IMG/VR virus record: IMGVR_UViG_3300009609_000428
Location: 1-42,019 of that record
Origin: a virus
Strand: one strand, 5' to 3'
DNA: 42,019 bases
How positions within the stretch are numbered: position 1 is the first letter of the stretch; each line of letters starts with the position of its first letter. The notes under the pieces are model-generated. The model had not been told where the DNA came from. It saw only the letters and a list, made by a program, of their open reading frames with translations, and did not search any database. This document shows, piece by piece, positions 21-42,019 of this stretch. A program made the position numbers and the translations under genes.

Positions 21-836
21 ATGGCTGGTTTTGCGGACAAGAGGCAGTGGGGGCCGACGCCTAGGTATGATCGGGTACGCGCGTATGAGCCCAAACAAAA
101 AGACTTTATCGTAATTGCTGGGCCTTGCTCGGTAGAGTCCGAAACACAAATCAACTACGTCGCTAACGCCGTCGCAAGCGCTGGGGCCACACACCTGCGG
201 GGGGGTTTGTTTCGCGCTGGTACTTATCCAAACGATAACTATGGAATCGTTTCACAAGATCTATTTAAAGCATTTAAATATGCCGCCGGTGTTTATCAAC
301 TAAAGACCGTGATTGAGGTTCTAGACGCCCACTCTCTAGATTTTGTTTTACCTTATGCAGACTGCCTTCAGGTCGGATGCAGGCAGATGCAAAACTATTC
401 TTTGCTGACGCGTCTCTCTAGAACCAACAAGACTGTTTTTCTGAAGCGCAGCCCTGGAGCAACAATCGATGAGTTCTTGGGCTCTGCTGAATATTTATTA
501 AAGGGTGGGGCATGTACACCGGTTCTGATTGAGCGTGGCTCGGCAACCCAGGCAACGCATGTCCGGTGGGATCTTTCCATCAGCATGATTCCTGCGATTA
601 AAAGCATTAGTCAAATTCCGGTGGTGGTTGATGCTGCTCACGGAACCGGTAGGCGTGATCTCGTTGTGCCTATGACTCTTGCGGGGGTTGCTGCGGGTGC
701 GGCTGGAATTCTTGTTGAGGTGCATCCCAAGCCAGAACTAAGCCTATCCGATGCAGATCAGGCGATTGATCCAAACAAATTTAAAGAGCTGATGTTTAGT
801 GTTGGGCAAGTAAGAAACGCAATTAGGGGGATATGA
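21..836 (+). CDS. DAHP-synthase-like aldolase (3-deoxy-ulosonate synthase family)
   Basis: The 271-residue product matches the class I-beta DAHP synthase fold, which condenses phosphoenolpyruvate with an aldose phosphate. The AGPCSVES motif holds C36; [11 protein letters not shown] holds H208; LVEVHP holds E234; LSDADQ holds D245. These are the four expected metal ligands. The substrate loop is diverged: where DAHP synthases carry KPRT/S and KDO8P synthases KANR, this protein reads [11 protein letters not shown] (residues 61-71). The usual ERGIRT loop is also altered to ERGSAT (172-177). I infer a true aldolase with a changed aldose acceptor, though a plain DAHP synthase is possible. The ATG follows GGGGGATTTA. 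The stop overlaps the next gene by 4 bp, so the two are probably co-translated. Confidence 0.85.
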
Positions 837-2194
837 TGACGGATTTCGGGGACTTCGCGTGTGTGGTTTGCGGAACAAAGGGCAATTGGAAAAATGTAGA
901 TGAGTTTCGATTCAAGGCGTCTGGCATGAATCTGTGCATGACCTGTGGTTTTGTAACGTATCCAAAGATCTGTATGAAGACGGATGACCTGACGAATCAT
1001 TATCGGCACGATTACCGAGAGGCGCCGACCGTCAACAATCTCTTTTCTGGAGAGCGCAAGCTGCACTATCACGGCCAGTTCTTGGCCCCGCTCTTTGAAG
1101 AGTGGAAAGCCAAAGGGAAGAAGAAACCCAAAATCGTAGAGATCGGCGCCGCCTTCGGAATGGCGATGAAATGGTTTAATAATTTCGTACCGGATGCAGA
1201 GCTTTACGGAACAGAGCTCACGCTTTCGTTTCGTCGTGAGGCTTATTGGATGTATGGATTCAATCTCACCGAGCAGCCAGACTTTACCAAGAAGTATGAT
1301 TTGATCATGTCCTACAAGGTCGCTGAGCACATTCCGGGTGTGGATAAAGATCTCAGGCAATACGCAGAGGCCTTGACCGAAGACGGGTTGCTTTACATCA
1401 GCGTACCGACTTGGTTCACCGAGCTTACGAACTTTGGTTTCAATGGATTTGATTTAGAGACCTATTACGACACTAATCATGTCAACGTCTGGAGCAGGAA
1501 CCTATTCGAACAGCTTCTGAAAAAGTCGGGGTTAAAAGTTGTACGCGATAATCATACTTTCTACGGCAACACTTATTTATGTGTTCGTGATGACTCACTG
1601 ATGCAAGAAGCACTCACTTTTGACGACCCACAAAAGAGGTTAGATGACCTGAAAAAAGTATTTGAGGTGGGTAAACTTGCGATGCAGGGCAGGTTCGAAG
1701 AGGCGCTTACGATCTGGCCCAACTACCCAGAGGCCCATATCAATCGCTATGAGATGGCGCGCAGTAAGCTGCATCAATTGGGTTATGAGCAAATCCAAAA
1801 GCAGTTTCTCGACCACGCCATCGCTTGCTGTCCTAACTCAGCTCATGTCGCGAACTTTGCGGCCGATCTTTCGCTTCGCTATGAGAAGTTTGACAAGGCC
1901 GTGACGTATTTCCAAAAGTCTTTAGACATGAAGCCGAACGACCCACAGACTCTTACGGGCCTAGGGCATTGCTTTATTCAGATGTCTGAGAAAGCGCCAG
2001 ATCTCAGCGACAAACTCAAGCTCAAACAAGAGGCAAGGCAGGTGTTTGCGTTCTTGGATAAAACATCCAAGCAATGCAGCAACGACGCAATTACATGGAT
2101 CATGCAGATTAATGCCGGTCTGCCCATGCCAACGGAGGGGAGCCCAACCACTATGACAGCGCAGAAAGAAAACCCAGCATCTACAGCCTCTTGA
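833..2194 (+). CDS. Zinc-ribbon class I SAM methyltransferase with TPR-like C-terminus
   Basis: The 453-residue product has three visible parts. An N-terminal zinc ribbon has two CxxC pairs (CVVCG near residue 10, CMTCG near 35). A class I S-adenosylmethionine methyltransferase core follows, with glycine-rich motif [11 protein letters not shown] near residue 105 and a typical late [15 protein letters not shown] strand. After residue 270 come helical repeats of TPR type (for example the block around [18 protein letters not shown]). Zinc-ribbon methyltransferases of this layout occur in sugar and surface-polysaccharide clusters, so a sugar or glycan substrate is a reasonable inference; the sequence does not prove it. 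The start is ATGATG directly after GGGGGAT and overlaps the upstream stop, implying coupling to the DAHP-synthase-like gene. Confidence 0.75.
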
Positions 2195-4421: not shown

Positions 4422-4471
4422 AAAACATGAATTGCATCAGAAGACTAATCTCAAAATTTTGGGGGACCAAC

Positions 4472-5665
4472 ATGAAAAAGAAAAACAGCTGCAACAAAAT
4501 TGATCAGGGCTCTGGAGACGACAAAGTCGAGATCAATAATTATTTTGCAAAAGGTCCTCAAGGCCCCCCAGGACCCCAGGGCCCACAGGGTGTGCAGGGC
4601 CCAGCCGGACCATCAGGTCCAGCGGGAGCACAGGGTGAAATCGGTCCCCAGGGCGCGATTGGACCTATTGGTCCCCAGGGCTCACAGGGATTACCAGGTG
4701 AGATGGGGCCCCAGGGCGAAACGGGTCCTCAGGGAGAACCTGGTCCAATGGGACCAATTGGCCCGCAGGGAGAACCTGGTGTCGCCGGCCCACAGGGGTT
4801 ACAGGGTGAGTCCGGTCCACAGGGTGAAGTTGGTCCACAAGGTCCCCAAGGCGAGATGGGATTAGCTGGACCACAAGGTGAGATAGGACCTCAAGGTGCG
4901 CAGGGGTTACAAGGTGACATCGGACCAACCGGCCCGCAGGGGTTACAAGGTGACATCGGACCAGTAGGTCCACAAGGCGTGCAAGGAATTCAGGGTGAGA
5001 TGGGTCTCCAAGGAGAACCCGGTCTTCAGGGGATTCAAGGCCTTCAGGGGGAAATGGGATTGCAGGGTGAGCCTGGGCTACAGGGCCCCCAAGGATTGCA
5101 GGGGATTCAGGGCGATGCGGGTCCGATGGGACCACAGGGTCCCGAGGGTCCGGTCGGTCCACAGGGATCTCAGGGAGAAGCGGGCCCCCAGGGTACGCAA
5201 GGAATTCAAGGTGAGCAAGGCATCGCTGGGCCCGAAGGTCCAACTGGTCTAACCGGTCCCGAAGGCCCACAAGGCGTTGCTGGGCCGGTTGGTCCTGAAG
5301 GACCGCAAGGACTCCAAGGTCCAGCAGGGATTGAGGGCCCCATTGGTCCTCAGGGCCCCCAAGGCGAAGCTGGTCCTCAAGGGGTTGAGGGTCCGATGGG
5401 ACCGCAAGGACCGGTTGGCGCAACCGGTCCCGAAGGCCCAGTAGGACCCGCTGGCCCAGATGGTATACAAGGTGTTCAAGGACCTGTCGGTCCCGAGGGT
5501 CAACAAGGGATTCCTGGGCCTGCTTATCCGATTCTGGCTTTAGATCCTTCGAATCCGGCGGATGGTGAAGCATGGTATCTTTTGACTCCAGGATCACCGG
5601 ATACACTGCAGCTATGCATGAAGCAACAGGCGGGAATCTTCCGTTTGCTCTTTACGCTCAGCTAA
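4472..5665 (+). CDS. Collagen-like fibre protein
   Basis: The product is 397 residues from the ATG at 4472, chosen because GGGGGACCAAC precedes it; an in-frame ATG at 4427 lacks such a site. A 27-residue polar head is followed by 108 uninterrupted Gly-X-Y triplets (DNA 4553-5524), dominated by GPQ, GLQ, GPE and GPV. A 47-residue tail domain contains [11 protein letters not shown], a motif seen in phage fibre ends. The triplet stretch has Glu and Asp but no Lys or Arg, so the predicted triple helix is strongly acidic. Collagen-like stretches are known in phage tail fibres. The gene lies outside the main virion module, next to other unusual surface-directed genes. Confidence 0.85.
4553..5524 (+). 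repeat. Gly-X-Y coding repeat, 108 triplets
   Basis: This is a 9-bp-periodic, low-complexity coding repeat (GGN at every ninth base). It keeps several false reading frames open on both strands, which should not be annotated as genes. Confidence 0.95.
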
Positions 5666-31291: not shown

Positions 31292-32293
31292 ATGGCTGGT
31301 TTAACGACGGAACAAATTCGGAATCAATCACTAACGGCGTTGCGACAATGGGAAACTATTTGGCGAAAGCACGCAGAGAACGCCTCTAAATATCAAATGA
31401 AGAGCTTTGCAGACTTCGAGGGCACAGGTGCGGGTAGGGCGTGTCTTCTTGTGGCTAATGGATGGAGCTTTGAAAAAGAACTCGAGACGATTAAAAAACA
31501 CCAAGGCAACGTCGATATCTTCGCCTGCGACAAAACGCTGGGACACCTCTTACAGAACGGGATTAAGCCCACGTACTGCGTGGTCTGTGATGCCAACGTT
31601 GATTACGAAAAGTATATGGAGAAATGGAAAGACCAACTCCAAGACACGATCCTGATTCAGAATGTGTGCGCCAATCCTAAATGGGTTGATAACGGGAACT
31701 GGAAGGATCGCTATTTCTTCGTTGTGAAGGATGCCATTCAAAGCGAGCAGATTTTTCAGGGGCTTTCGAAGTGCCCGAACACCATCGCCGCAGGCACCAA
31801 TGTTTCTAATTCCATGGTCATCTTTATGACCCAATGTGACAACGAACACCGCAGGAATTTCTTTGGATACGATAAATATCTACTCATTGGATTCGATTAC
31901 TGTTGGACAGTAAAGGGCAGTTATTATGCTTTTGATTTCGAGGGCAAGGGCAAGCGCTATTACATGCGCCATGTCTATGGAAAGACCTTGGGTGGGGACC
32001 TTTGTTACACCTCAAACAACCTCGCATTTAGCGTCCAATGGCTTCAGAAATATATCGAGGCATTTAAATTACCGGTGCTGAATTGCTCTAAATATTCAGT
32101 GCTCGCCGTGCCTGGCCAAAAGAAGGTCGCTAAGCTCGAAGAGCAGATGCAATACAAGGGATCTGTCGATCCTGTGAAGTTGGGTTATGCCGCTAAAAAA
32201 AGACGTGAGTTATTGGATTTGAAGCGTAAAATCGAAGAAGAATTAAATGAGATGCGAACTAGGCAATTCTTTGACTACCTCGCATCCGTGTAA
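31292..32293 (+). CDS. DUF115/Maf-like protein (possible glycosyltransferase)
   Basis: The 333-residue product resembles DUF115/MptE-like proteins. CLLVANGWSFEKELETIKK (about residues 50-68) corresponds to the GPSL region. FACDKTLGHLLQNGIKP and VVCDANVDYEKY follow, then AAGTNVSNSMVIFM and YLLIGFDYCW for the conserved GGSV and GxDxxW segments. The family includes Maf proteins, which attach nonulosonic acids to flagellin, and pterin pyrophosphokinases. Here the gene sits between the tail terminator and tail tube genes, so a tail protein may be the acceptor. That last step is inference. TGAGGGGGAT precedes the ATG. Confidence 0.7.
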   Translation: MAGLTTEQIRNQSLTALRQWETIWRKHAENASKYQMKSFADFEGTGAGRACLLVANGWSFEKELETIKKHQGNVDIFACDKTLGHLLQNGIKPTYCVVCDANVDYEKYMEKWKDQLQDTILIQNVCANPKWVDNGNWKDRYFFVVKDAIQSEQIFQGLSKCPNTIAAGTNVSNSMVIFMTQCDNEHRRNFFGYDKYLLIGFDYCWTVKGSYYAFDFEGKGKRYYMRHVYGKTLGGDLCYTSNNLAFSVQWLQKYIEAFKLPVLNCSKYSVLAVPGQKKVAKLEEQMQYKGSVDPVKLGYAAKKRRELLDLKRKIEEELNEMRTRQFFDYLASV

Positions 32294-32306: not shown

Positions 32307-33368
32307 ATGGCCGTTGGACAAGGTGGGTTAATCTCGGGTTTATCCTATTTCGCGTTAGGTCGCGAAACAGCCTTCGCAACATACAACACATGCACGTCGG
32401 GACTGGATTTCCTCTCGTGCTCACTTAAGACGCTCAAAGAAAATAAGATCCTTGAGCAGGTCCAAAGGGCTCGCACTTATTCAAACCGAATCGCGCTGGG
32501 AAAAGTCGTTGAGGGCGAAGTCGAGTACTACTACCAACCCCGACTTGATGCCTGCAATTTTATCCTGCAAAACTTCTTCGGCGGAACTGTAACCAGCGCA
32601 ACAGCTACCGGCGAAACCACCGGCGCTGGAGCAGCCTCTGCCATCACGCACACATTTAACATCGGCAACATGGATCAAAGCTATCCTTCGCTTTGCATCA
32701 ACGTGCGCAAGGGCCCGTCTACTGGTGGATATGTATTTCAATACAGCGGTGTTCGAGTCGATGAACTCATGTTCACCGCAGAACTTAACGAACCATTAAT
32801 GGTTAAGGCAGCACTCGTTTGTGTTGACTCAACCCAGGTTTCAAATGATGTTGAGTCGGCTTCGGTTGTTCCTACGACTTCGGTTCTGTCTTTTGAGGCT
32901 GGCCGATTGTCTGTTGAGGGAACATTTGCATCATTAACCTCGACCTCGTTCTGGCATGTCGTCAGTGCTGAATTCGGTTGGGCAAACGGGCTTAAAAAAG
33001 ATGACGACTCTCGCCGCATTGGTTCTGATCTTCTCGTTGTACTGCCTCCAGGAATGGCGCAGTTCACGCTGAATTGTAAGATCCGATTCGATACAACCAC
33101 GGCTTATTCTGCAATGATGAATGCGACCCAGCTCGCATGTCAGCTCGAATTCTTAGGCCCCACCCTGCCAGGTGGGTCTGCAATCCGCCAGGGTGTTAAG
33201 TTTAACTTCCCGAAAGTCTTCATCTCGGATGCTGGCGATCCTGAAATCGGCGGCCCAGATGAGCTCCTGATGAGCGAAGTTGTGTTCAATGTGCTGAGAG
33301 ACGAATCCAGCACCGGTGGCTACGCTGTGCAGGCTCTGGTTACGAACCAAAAAGCGAACTACGCGTAA
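32307..33368 (+). CDS. Major tail tube protein
   Basis: The 353-residue product starts MAVGQGGLISGLSYFALGRE, typical for siphophage tube proteins. Long beta-rich segments and an ELNEPLMVKAALV motif of the tube fold follow. A Thr/Gly/Ala-rich loop (GGTVTSATATGETTGAGAAS, about 93-112) lies in the N-terminal half and could be exposed and rich in O-glycosylation-type residues. TAAGGGGGGATAAACT precedes the ATG. It directly precedes the frameshifted chaperone genes, as expected. Confidence 0.8.
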   Translation: MAVGQGGLISGLSYFALGRETAFATYNTCTSGLDFLSCSLKTLKENKILEQVQRARTYSNRIALGKVVEGEVEYYYQPRLDACNFILQNFFGGTVTSATATGETTGAGAASAITHTFNIGNMDQSYPSLCINVRKGPSTGGYVFQYSGVRVDELMFTAELNEPLMVKAALVCVDSTQVSNDVESASVVPTTSVLSFEAGRLSVEGTFASLTSTSFWHVVSAEFGWANGLKKDDDSRRIGSDLLVVLPPGMAQFTLNCKIRFDTTTAYSAMMNATQLACQLEFLGPTLPGGSAIRQGVKFNFPKVFISDAGDPEIGGPDELLMSEVVFNVLRDESSTGGYAVQALVTNQKANYA

Positions 33369-38665: not shown

Positions 38666-39130
38666 ATGTCTGTTCTCGTTCCATCTGCAAGAAACACATT
38701 AGAGGTTGGGGGCCGCGTCTTCACTGATCTCGTAAACATAAAAGTGTTGTGGGCCAGGGTAACGTCTACAAATTATACCACCATGCGAAGATCTTCTGGC
38801 AGCGCTGGCTACCAGGTTACTGCGGGAAAGACGCTTAGAGTTTCGGGTGTTGATCTGTGGCAAAACGTATCCACAACCACCGCTGCAGAGGCTGCAATCA
38901 TCGGCTACGCGGATAATGATTTGGGTGTAAATGGTGCATCAACACCAACCAATCCAATCTATCCCGGTAACGATGGCGGAGAATTGGGTAAGATCGGCTT
39001 AGCGCGAACGCCAGTTGGGCGATATGGGGTTCCACTGGAGTGGGACATTCCAGCCGCTAAATATCCATTTCTAAGAGGCACTAACGCCTTCATTGATTGC
39101 AGTGGTCGATTCTTTGGCTATGAAATCTAA
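38666..39130 (+). CDS. Small virion-associated protein
   Basis: The 154-residue product is beta-rich with Thr, Ser and Gly (ARVTSTNYTTMRRSSGSAGY, then AGKTLRVSGVDLWQNVS) and ends with IDCSGRFFGYEI. Such proteins often sit at fibre tips or act as fibre chaperones. It follows the fibre gene, and GGGGGCTCTT precedes the ATG. Its last 11 bp overlap the radical SAM gene. Confidence 0.55.
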   Translation: MSVLVPSARNTLEVGGRVFTDLVNIKVLWARVTSTNYTTMRRSSGSAGYQVTAGKTLRVSGVDLWQNVSTTTAAEAAIIGYADNDLGVNGASTPTNPIYPGNDGGELGKIGLARTPVGRYGVPLEWDIPAAKYPFLRGTNAFIDCSGRFFGYEI

Positions 39131-40079
39131 ACTCGATCACCTCCTGTATCGATTGAAATATCGATATGGCAAATGGCTTCCGCTCGAAGTTCCGGTAGAT
39201 ATCAGCCTTGAGCTTTCTTCCCGGTGCAACATGGCATGTTCGTATTGCTATCACAGCAAGGATAACGAGCCGAATCTCCCATTCAAAAAAGGAATGATGG
39301 ATCGACTTCTAGCCATTGGAATCATTCAAGAGGCGGCGGTCCTTGGCGTTCACTCTTTAAAGTTTAATTACCGGGGGGAATCTACCGTTCACCCACACTT
39401 TAAAGAAATCACTGGCGCGGCAAAGAAGCTCGCAGGCGGCCGCGTGTTCATTGATCGGATCACGAATTCCAATTTCAAGTTTCGATCGGATCGAGAAGAT
39501 ATTTTTGAGGGCCTATGCAATCAAACCAAGGTGAAAGTGTCCTATGACTCCTTTAGCAAAGCAGTTTTTGAATCGCAGCGTAAGGGTGGTGATCATGCTC
39601 TTACGACTCGTAATATTGATTTGTTTTATAATCATGCTTTACGAAAAAACACGGAGCTCGTTCTCCAAGCGGTACGAACGTCTCTTAACCGACACGAAGA
39701 TATCGAGGGCGAAGTAAAGAAACGATGGCCATCAGCAACCCTGAGCATTCGAGAGGTTGTCGATGGGCGAAAACAGCAGAGCATTGGCGATCTTGCAAAT
39801 AAACACAGAGATTTCTCAAACCGTCAAAGCTGCCTACAGGCACACGTCAGATTGATCATCACGCACGAGGGTAAGTGCATTCCTTGCTGCCCAGACATTA
39901 AAGAGGACCTCGTTTTGGGTGATGTCCGCTTTGAATCGCTTCGTAAGATATTCTCTGGTCCAATAGCAAAGCAATTAAGAAAAGACCTAATTTCCAAAAA
40001 AGCATTTGAGAATAGTCCATGTTCAACCTGTCCTGCGCACGAGAGCTATAGGGGATATAAGCCTGTATGGACAAGCTAA
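39120..40079 (+). CDS. Radical SAM enzyme with SPASM-like domain
   Basis: The product is 319 residues from the ATG at 39120; an in-frame upstream codon at 39093 lies inside the previous gene. CNMACSYC (C36, C40, C43) is the radical SAM cluster motif. The C-terminus has CLQAH, GKCIPCC and SPCSTCP, the Cys pattern of SPASM/twitch auxiliary clusters, and a typical VLGDVRFESLRKIF hinge. Members modify peptides, proteins or sugars. The neighbour is a sugar-nucleotide/glycosyltransferase gene, which favours a sugar or glycoprotein substrate, but that is inferred. Confidence 0.85.
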   Translation: MKSKLDHLLYRLKYRYGKWLPLEVPVDISLELSSRCNMACSYCYHSKDNEPNLPFKKGMMDRLLAIGIIQEAAVLGVHSLKFNYRGESTVHPHFKEITGAAKKLAGGRVFIDRITNSNFKFRSDREDIFEGLCNQTKVKVSYDSFSKAVFESQRKGGDHALTTRNIDLFYNHALRKNTELVLQAVRTSLNRHEDIEGEVKKRWPSATLSIREVVDGRKQQSIGDLANKHRDFSNRQSCLQAHVRLIITHEGKCIPCCPDIKEDLVLGDVRFESLRKIFSGPIAKQLRKDLISKKAFENSPCSTCPAHESYRGYKPVWTS

Positions 40080-41407
40080 ATTATGGGTTCGTGATCTGTT
40101 CAAGATCCGGATCTAGGCGCGTCCCCAATAAGGCGCTGCAGCCCATCAACGGAGTGCCCATGATTCAACACCTCATTGGGCGCTGTCTTAAGTCCGGATA
40201 TCCAGTGATTCTTGCGATTCCTAACAAGGACTATGAACAATATAAATTTCTAAACAAGGTCTTTGGGCATGAGGGTCTAACCATTCACATGGGACAACCC
40301 GACGATCCGCTTCAAAGGATGTATCAGGCTGCAAAGATGCATAAACTAGATGCCATATTTAGGGTGACGCATGACAAATTATTTATCGAAGAAGCGGCGG
40401 TTCGAATGTTTGTTGATCATTACGAGCGCTATTCTCCTGATTATTTATATAGCTCTTCTTCTGTGGACGGCGCCAGCTTCGAGCTGATTCGGTTCGAGGC
40501 GCTCGAAAAAGCTGCTCAGAAATTTAAAGACATAGAATATATCGGATACGCAATTCGTTGCTTGACCGATAAAATAAAAGACCTTTACTTGGGTGGGGTC
40601 TGGCAATCAGATCATCGATTGCTTTTAGATTATCCAGAGGATCTGGCCGTTCTCAATCTCACGCTTCAAAACCTAGGTAACGATTGCTCGCTCACCGAGG
40701 CGATCCGATTCTTGGATAAGAACGAATGGCTCTCGCGCTCTAACCGAATGCCAAAGGTGACAGTCTACACCTGTGCATATAACGCCGAGAAATGGCTCAC
40801 TAAAGCCATGGGTTCCGTGTCTCAACAAATCGGGTTTAAAGACATGGAATATATTTTGATCGACGATTGTTCTACGGATCGAACCGGATTAATCATGAGC
40901 AAGTTTTGTGACGTTTATAAGAATGCGCGATGGATTAAAAATGATACAAATCTTGGGTTGGCTAGTTCTTCTAATGTGGCTCTGCTATCTACTCGAGGAA
41001 GATATCTTATTAGGCTTGATGCTGATGATTACTTTGTGGACTCTAATGCGATTGAGTCGTTGCTAGAAAACGCGGGCTCCCAAAAGGTAGACGTTGTTTA
41101 CCCAGATAACTTCTTTGGTTCCTTTAAAAAAATACAGCCTGGCGCTGAAGCCCATCATGTGGGCGGGGCGCTGTTTAGAACGCGTGCCGCTAACCATGTG
41201 AAGTTCACCGATGGCTTAAGGGGCTACGAGGGGCTCGACTTCTTCGCGCGGGCGCGCGAGCAGCTTAAGATCGGATATCTCAAGAAGCCCATTTTCTTTT
41301 ATCGTCAACACGAGGGCTCTCTAACCAAAACAAACCAAGAAGACCGTGAGCAGATTCGATCCGACATCTTAAGGAAATACGGCAATGTCTATAAAATTCA
41401 ATCCTAA
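40067..41407 (+). CDS. SpsF-like cytidylyltransferase fused to GT2 glycosyltransferase
   Basis: The 446-residue product is bifunctional in appearance. Residues 1-225 match SpsF/CMP-sugar synthetase-type nucleotidyltransferases (ICSRSGSRRVPNKALQPI, then PDDPLQRMYQAAKMH). Residues 228-446 match family 2 glycosyltransferases (VTVYTCAYNAEKWL, LIDDCSTDRTG, and RLDADDYF near 318 as the DxD). One chain could thus activate a sugar and transfer a sugar. The acceptor is unknown. The start overlaps the radical SAM stop by 13 bp, implying one operon. Confidence 0.85.
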   Translation: MDKLNYGFVICSRSGSRRVPNKALQPINGVPMIQHLIGRCLKSGYPVILAIPNKDYEQYKFLNKVFGHEGLTIHMGQPDDPLQRMYQAAKMHKLDAIFRVTHDKLFIEEAAVRMFVDHYERYSPDYLYSSSSVDGASFELIRFEALEKAAQKFKDIEYIGYAIRCLTDKIKDLYLGGVWQSDHRLLLDYPEDLAVLNLTLQNLGNDCSLTEAIRFLDKNEWLSRSNRMPKVTVYTCAYNAEKWLTKAMGSVSQQIGFKDMEYILIDDCSTDRTGLIMSKFCDVYKNARWIKNDTNLGLASSSNVALLSTRGRYLIRLDADDYFVDSNAIESLLENAGSQKVDVVYPDNFFGSFKKIQPGAEAHHVGGALFRTRAANHVKFTDGLRGYEGLDFFARAREQLKIGYLKKPIFFYRQHEGSLTKTNQEDREQIRSDILRKYGNVYKIQS

Positions 41408-41648
41408 GGATTTAGTTCCGGCCAGTCCACAGGTAGACGCAATGAAGATCTTGCAGCGTGCAGACGTTGTGTGGTCTCGCATCAAACTAGAACCGGGTGA
41501 GTATCTCTTGGTGAAGATCGGAAAGCACATGGGCTCTCAGGCCAATGAGATTCAGAAAATGATCGACTCGGTATTTAAGAGAGAGAGCGATCGCGTATTA
41601 ATCTATACAGAGGGTGATCTAGAAATCAGTAAGGTTGTTTATGAGTAA
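41385..41648 (+). CDS. Hypothetical small protein
   Basis: The 87-residue product has alternating alpha/beta character (AMKILQRADVVWSRIKL, GEYLLVKIGKHMGS, DRVLIYTEGDLEISKVV), perhaps a small alpha/beta fold. It overlaps the glycosyltransferase gene by 23 bp and the next gene by 8 bp. No family recognised. Confidence 0.6.
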   Translation: MSIKFNPKDLVPASPQVDAMKILQRADVVWSRIKLEPGEYLLVKIGKHMGSQANEIQKMIDSVFKRESDRVLIYTEGDLEISKVVYE

Positions 41649-42019
41649 ATGGCCAGCGCTCGACCTGCTTAAAATCAAGGCCCACTGGGGACACGCTGAC
41701 TGGAAAACCTGTCTTAAAAAGTGCGTTCATGAAATGGATCTGCACAAGATCGGAACCATTCGCTATGGCCTTCAGCGAGGCATGACAGAGCTTGCAAAAA
41801 AGAAAATCAACGATGAGAAGACATGTGAGTTCTTTGCGATGCTACAGCGGCAAACCGAAGAGGCCGCTCGGTGGGTCATTCGTAAACGGCACGAGAATAA
41901 TCCATACGTTAGTCAAAATGTTGCCAACAACCTAGAAGCGACGCGTCTAAACATTCTGTTCGCGCGCGCTGATAAAAAGCAAATGGAGGTAGACTTTCAG
42001 TCTTGGAAGCATAAATATA
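41641..42019 (+). CDS. Partial gene cut by the window end
   Basis: An ATG overlapping the upstream stop opens a frame that stays open to the last base (126 residues visible). The sequence is helical and rich in Lys, Arg, Ala and Gln (LKIKAHWGHADWKTCLKK, then CEFFAMLQRQTEEAARWVI). No domain recognised. If the window were circular, the frame would run without a stop into the DAHP-synthase-like gene at 21. Confidence 0.65.
   Translation, partial: MSKWPALDLLKIKAHWGHADWKTCLKKCVHEMDLHKIGTIRYGLQRGMTELAKKKINDEKTCEFFAMLQRQTEEAARWVIRKRHENNPYVSQNVANNLEATRLNILFARADKKQMEVDFQSWKHKY

Follow-up and report, generated by a model that had tools for sequence, protein, structure and literature searches.

The virus record IMGVR_UViG_3300009609_000428 of the IMG/VR database, analysed here over its whole length of 42,019 bases (the window), raises the question of what enzymes for making, activating and transferring acidic sugars do together in a phage. 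The initial annotation had proposed that a diverged 3-deoxy-ulosonate synthase, a zinc-ribbon methyltransferase, a radical S-adenosylmethionine (SAM)/SPASM enzyme, an SpsF-like cytidine monophosphate (CMP)-sugar transferase fused to a GT2 glycosyltransferase and a Maf-like protein form one system, and all five gene types were found in the window by Pfam and profile scans of its open reading frames (ORFs) (Table 1). It is concluded, with a probability of about 0.62, that these genes constitute one phage-encoded nonulosonic-acid (sialic-acid-like) glycosylation system that acts on a virion protein, most likely the tail tube. The model builds on computed results, namely the gene identities, their co-occurrence, a swap between two synthase types, the adjacency of the Maf and tail tube genes and the predicted fold of Maf.

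Absence of co-occurrence in related phages had been named beforehand as the outcome that would speak against a common system, and the co-occurrence proved complete. Relatives were gathered by single proteins and then by profiles for Maf, the synthase and the major capsid protein, and the count was made over those distinct records, from IMG/VR or genomes, that cover the region (n = 32), the records lacking the set being fragments that stop before the cassette. Genes for Maf, the radical SAM/SPASM enzyme, SpsF-GT2, the synthase and the zinc-ribbon methyltransferase occur together in 32 of 32 records, a count biased by the fact that most records were found through one of the cassette genes. Six records (G055, G056, G057, G060, G061 and G062) were found by capsid similarity alone, and the full set is present in 6/6. 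In the L192 lineage the cassette lies between the terminase and portal genes while Maf still lies beside the tail tube; the linkage is therefore not merely frozen gene order. The L192 contig is binned in an Endomicrobiia metagenome-assembled genome (MAG Yes70-21), the sole and weak hint of a host.

Phages reached by the capsid profile and 31–39% identical in the capsid protein served as an outgroup control. Neither Maf (11 whole records searched) nor the window's type of tail tube was found in them, and the radical SAM and SpsF-GT2 genes were not found in 10 of the 11 whole outgroup records. The exception, G044, contains distant homologues of the radical SAM enzyme and of SpsF, but these are arranged differently and accompanied by a third gene resembling an ATP-grasp ligase. 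As outgroups without Maf also lack the cassette, with this one partial exception, Maf and the cassette appear to have been gained or lost together. The three G044 genes (L348:370-3703) are located just upstream of the terminase gene, and no Maf is present. A search of 50,697 phage records disclosed no homologue of Maf or of the tail tube protein, the relatives of the major capsid protein in that collection being only about 27% identical. In another record, G035 (L184:1494-10755), the radical SAM enzyme, DAHP synthase (DAHPS) variant, SpsF and GT2 are encoded by four consecutive separate genes, so that the SpsF-GT2 fusion joins partners that travel together elsewhere too. In this 57-kb record, probably from a large phage, the four genes lie within a long sugar cluster that also has heptose-type kinase/nucleotidyltransferase genes, epimerases and many glycosyltransferases.

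The diverged synthase of the initial annotation was confirmed as a phosphoenolpyruvate (PEP)-dependent enzyme; its family was corrected to DAHP synthase, and its acceptor-sugar site was seen to be altered. The protein scores 248.4 bits with TIGR01361 (DAHP synthase), below the cut-off of 267.75, and its closest PDB relatives are the DAHPS of Pyrococcus furiosus (1zco) and of Thermotoga (1rzm). Identity as a KDO8P synthase was rejected on a score of 62 bits against a cut-off of 314, on the PDB relatives and on the motif. Comparison of 22 phage-lineage sequences with a non-exhaustive sample of 28 cellular sequences showed that the K-P-R-T-S motif (KPR(T/S)), the erythrose-4-phosphate site of DAHP synthase, is replaced by R-A-G-T-Y, with A-G at the P-R positions in 22/22 phage-lineage sequences and K-P-R present in 28/28 cellular ones. 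Residues C36, K142, R143, R172, H207, E233 and D244, in this family the metal ligands (Cys, His, Glu, Asp) and the residues for PEP binding (Lys, Arg), are retained in all 22. The phage-lineage variants form a separate single clade relative to the cellular sequences sampled (support 100/100). The lost arginine is a hint that the acceptor of the variant may not be a sugar phosphate.

The same slot is not always filled by the same enzyme. It contains the DAHPS variant in 20 of the 32 records, NeuB in 10 and both in 2 (G015 and G026). The NeuB proteins of these sister phages score 47 to 118 bits with PF03102 (cut-off 22.1, full-length proteins scanned), and the manganese-binding His pair (SxH and EKH) is kept in 7 of 8 aligned sequences. 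The remaining one, in G026 (L160:12286-12972), lacks the catalytic Glu as well as the two metal-binding His residues (IANIG, KDK, EKN), and this copy apparently decayed after functional replacement by the adjacent DAHPS variant. NeuB enzymes condense PEP with hexoses to give sialic-acid-type sugars (PMC7591256). That NeuB and the DAHPS variant interchange is the strongest sign of what is made here, and this swap suggests, as the best evidence available, that the product of the slot is a ulosonic acid.

These data bear on the view that the genes serve separate purposes, with the synthase boosting the shikimate pathway of the host, other tasks falling to the methyltransferase and the radical SAM enzyme, and Maf being an unrelated tail factor. 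The synthase does clearly belong to the DAHPS family, and a DAHP aldolase is already listed in PHROGs as a phage accessory gene, but KPRTS is lost in every copy, NeuB occupies the same slot, all the genes stay together across the 32 records, and no other shikimate gene was recognised among the window proteins scanned. This view is strongly disfavoured. Assignment of the synthase as a shikimate-boosting accessory gene was rejected on the loss of KPRTS and the replacement by NeuB. A cellular origin of the variant found no support among the best 80 cellular loci listed; these were canonical or lacked the variant motif, and the single exception belongs to a phage contig that had been binned in an Endomicrobiia MAG. 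When 931 genomes from three phyla were scanned for the variant motif, this same contig was the sole hit.

The placement of Maf within the tail genes, as originally described, stands and can be refined: among the loci whose sequence extends far enough, the gene immediately precedes that of the tail tube in 104 of 104. The window Maf scores 67 bits with PF01973 (cut-off 34.6) over residues 27-206, and the tail tube protein 63.2 bits with PF18906 (cut-off 27). In a search of 350,542 chains, the AlphaFold2 model of Maf (pLDDT 87) matched best the Magnetospirillum Maf 5mu5 (E 6e-11, TM 0.58 by query length), followed by archaeal MptE and, more weakly, by CMP-sialic-acid transferases. The PF01973 domain is known to resemble the sialyltransferase Cst-II (PMC11339370). 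That the protein is instead an MptE-like pterin diphosphokinase and no glycosyltransferase at all is a thought prompted by the second fold match (archaeal MptE/HPPK) and by the Pfam family being named after MptE; it is the least probable of the alternatives weighed here, since 5mu5 is the better match by both sequence and fold, the gene co-occurs with CMP-sugar genes and it lies among tail genes.

Characterised Mafs transfer CMP-nonulosonates to Ser/Thr of flagellin and accept CMP-Kdo too (PMC11339370), and Maf-dependent flagellin glycosylation precedes export (PMC4065374). Alignments of the tail tube proteins disclosed a conserved Ser/Thr-rich stretch, TSATATGET, which may, as a speculation, be a candidate glycosylation site. 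The initial annotation had left the sugar to be placed on a virion or a host structure; from the adjacency of the two genes, the tail tube and not a host structure is the likeliest acceptor. Taken as a reading of the gene set, a single system for synthesis, activation and transfer is thus supported by the co-occurrence, the synthase swap and the Maf-tube adjacency.

Phages alter host surface sugars, and the enzymes could accordingly modify a host surface glycan (lipopolysaccharide or capsule) or flagellin and block superinfection, Maf then acting on a host protein. The GT2 domains weakly match phage O-antigen-conversion families, G035 has similar genes in a large cluster resembling polysaccharide synthesis, and bacterial Mafs act on flagellin (PMC11339370). 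This is the most serious alternative, though an unlikely one, because Maf is in the tail operon right before the tube gene at every locus and the cassette enzymes have neither a flippase nor an obvious membrane segment, unlike gtr-type conversion modules, which have a flippase and membrane segments. The most hydrophobic stretch in any cassette enzyme, in the DAHPS barrel, reaches 2.1 on the Kyte-Doolittle scale. The lack of an obvious membrane segment fits modification in the cytoplasm.

The SpsF domain scores 56 bits with CTP_transf_3 (PF02348, cut-off 22.6), its nucleotide loop RxxSxRxPxK (R13, S16, R18, P20, K22) is invariant in 11 phages, and a DxD-type 'DADD' occurs in nearly all of the 11 aligned SpsF-GT2 proteins. 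The radical SAM protein has a SPASM score of 39.8 bits (cut-off 21.5); its CxxxCxxC motif (C45, C49, C52) and C247, C265, C266, C310 and C313 do not vary among 12 phages (residue numbers count from the TTG at 39093). The ORF is open over 39093-40079, and the ATG at 39120, already taken as the start in the initial annotation, best matches relatives. The closest PDB relative in a profile search is BtrN (1e-14), and by analogy it is our guess that the enzyme might perform a dehydrogenase-like oxidation of the sugar. In the methyltransferase the zinc-ribbon residues C10, C13, C35 and C38 are invariant in 11 phages. Phage DNA hypermodification systems include radical SAM, methyltransferase and glycosyltransferase genes, which could be taken to mean that the target of the cassette is phage DNA or some other nucleic acid and not a protein. 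A ulosonate synthase, a CMP-transferase and Maf have no known role in such systems, and among the gene calls examined, which covered a part of the window genes, no base-activating enzyme (e.g. a hydroxymethylase) was recognised; this reading is very improbable.

The glycosylation system we infer would work as follows. The synthase (the DAHPS variant, or NeuB in sister phages) would condense PEP with an aldose drawn from the host, and the SpsF domain would couple the resulting 3-deoxy-2-ulosonic acid to CMP, forming a CMP-ulosonate. Tailoring of the sugar would fall to the radical SAM enzyme and the methyltransferase, with a possible extension by the GT2 domain. Maf would transfer the activated sugar in the cytoplasm to a Ser or Thr residue of a virion protein, the tail tube being the likeliest one.

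Several points weigh against this proposal. The first is the chemistry itself, as every reaction, the order of the steps, the sugar and the acceptor are inferred. The aldose substrate and most of the classical NeuNAc/pseudaminate pathway are not encoded, and the precursors must therefore come from the host. The phage NeuB proteins (about 225-255 amino acids) end after the barrel and have no C-terminal antifreeze-like (SAF) domain, in which an arginine is essential in the Caulobacter NeuB (PMC7591256). The phage Maf, at 333 amino acids against 632 in 5mu5, consists of the central domain only and is without the N-terminal Rossmann-like and C-terminal helical domains of bacterial Maf; as the three-domain architecture is absent, it is called Maf-like and not a full Maf. 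The adjacency of the two genes suggests the tail tube as acceptor and is no proof of it. Last, a conserved helical protein, gEnd, is left unexplained by a glycosylation model. In the main clade its gene separates SpsF-GT2 from the synthase, and it is absent or unrecognised in distant members. The AlphaFold2 model of gEnd (pLDDT 91) is a bundle of five helices, for which a fold search gave nothing at E<=0.001; a hint of RecX was weak and was not accepted.

The supposition that the window ends adjoin, which would bring four of the genes into one cluster, was borne out by the gene order, which is the same in all relatives that span the join: radical SAM, SpsF-GT2, gEnd (in the main clade), synthase, methyltransferase. 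In one relative (G025) both contig ends fall within the synthase gene. The window has no terminal repeat. Its last ORF, gEnd, runs out at the final codon position of its relatives without a stop codon, and direct joining of the ends would give it none, so that the sequence probably lacks a few bases there. G018 (L004), which differs from the window by 2 mismatches over 17.4 kb, terminates at the very same base (window 42019, L004 17456). The shared end sits at the expected gEnd stop codon and may reflect either a break common to both assemblies or a physical end of the genome.

Table 1 Features of the window relevant to the proposed glycosylation system, with positions on the 42,019-base record.
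Feature	Coordinates	Strand	Supporting match or remark
DAHP-synthase-family variant, proposed 3-deoxy-ulosonate synthase	21..836	+	PF00793 2e-46
Zinc-ribbon SAM methyltransferase with C-terminal TPR region	833..2194	+	Methyltransf_23 6e-12 and TPR matches
Maf-family glycosyltransferase (DUF115/PF01973)	31292..32293	+	PF01973 2e-18
Tail tube protein, proposed acceptor	32307..33368	+	PF18906 Phage_tube_2 4e-17
Radical SAM/SPASM (twitch-type) enzyme	39120..40079	+	Pfam SPASM 5.7e-10, Radical_SAM 1.5e-4
SpsF-like CMP-sugar transferase fused to GT2 glycosyltransferase	40067..41407	+	CTP_transf_3 6e-15, Glycos_transf_2 2e-22
Small ORF, 87 aa, no assigned function	41385..41648	+	No family match
gEnd, small all-helical protein	41641..42019	+	20-sequence alignment; no stop codon before window end

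The 87-aa ORF gave a tblastn match only in G018, a contig near-identical to the window. Elsewhere in the window, positions 4427-5665 encode a 412-amino-acid protein with collagen-like Gly-Pro-Gln repeats, possibly a virion fibre.

The closest known counterparts are the Maf-dependent flagellin glycosylation systems of Campylobacter, Aeromonas, Clostridium and Magnetospirillum, which have in common with the phage set a PEP-dependent ulosonate synthase, a CMP-transferase and Maf. In the flagellin systems the transferase acts on the subunit of a polymeric tube, and in the phages the transferase gene adjoins a tube-subunit gene. The phage system differs in being phage-encoded, in having the transferase cut to the PF01973 domain, a DAHPS variant or short NeuB as synthase, the CMP-transferase fused to GT2 and a radical SAM enzyme and zinc-ribbon methyltransferase in addition, while upstream aldose-making genes were not recognised in the cassette. 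In Caulobacter, a NeuB-type sugar is used for cytoplasmic O-glycosylation of a tube-forming protein (PMC7591256), as proposed here, although the transferase is FlmG and not Maf; in the phages a TPR region is fused to the methyltransferase.

Among phages, the mycobacteriophages Che8 and Rita (Freeman et al. 2023, as cited in PMC11256854) have phage-encoded glycosyltransferases that act on virion proteins, which is likewise proposed here. According to that citation their glycans are on the major capsid protein, whereas the proposed acceptor here is the tail tube, and a ulosonate synthase/CMP/Maf module is not part of the description.

At the level of single enzymes, type I-beta DAHP synthases (1zco, 1rzm) have the fold family, metal ligands and PEP-binding residues in common with the phage variant, which differs in the R-A-G-T-Y motif, in the absence of an N-terminal regulatory domain and in forming a separate clade. 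The aminocyclitol dehydrogenase BtrN has the radical SAM motif and SPASM/twitch cysteines of the phage enzyme, but a good alignment covers only some 75 residues of the auxiliary domain, and the radical SAM part matches viperin-like enzymes better.

A Maf or ulosonate module in phages was not described in the open-licence papers searched; the parts are of known kinds, and what looks new is their combination, their setting in phages and the alteration of the synthase. A broader claim, that a widespread uncultured phage lineage has its own ulosonic-acid pathway dedicated to the tail tube, possibly with a virus-specific branch of the DAHPS superfamily that has changed its acceptor, probably to an aldose without phosphate, and can be exchanged for NeuB, is put forward tentatively, as somewhat less than an even chance. 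Few cases of phage virion glycosylation are known. If the proposal is true, a conserved module for synthesis, activation and transfer beside the tube gene would be a built-in trait of the whole lineage, it could yield an undescribed acidic sugar, and the exchange of the DAHPS variant and NeuB would be a natural example of how a sugar-acid synthase can arise from an enzyme that serves the synthesis of aromatic amino acids. Maf chemistry would then extend from flagella to phage tails, as a viral counterpart of flagellin glycosylation.

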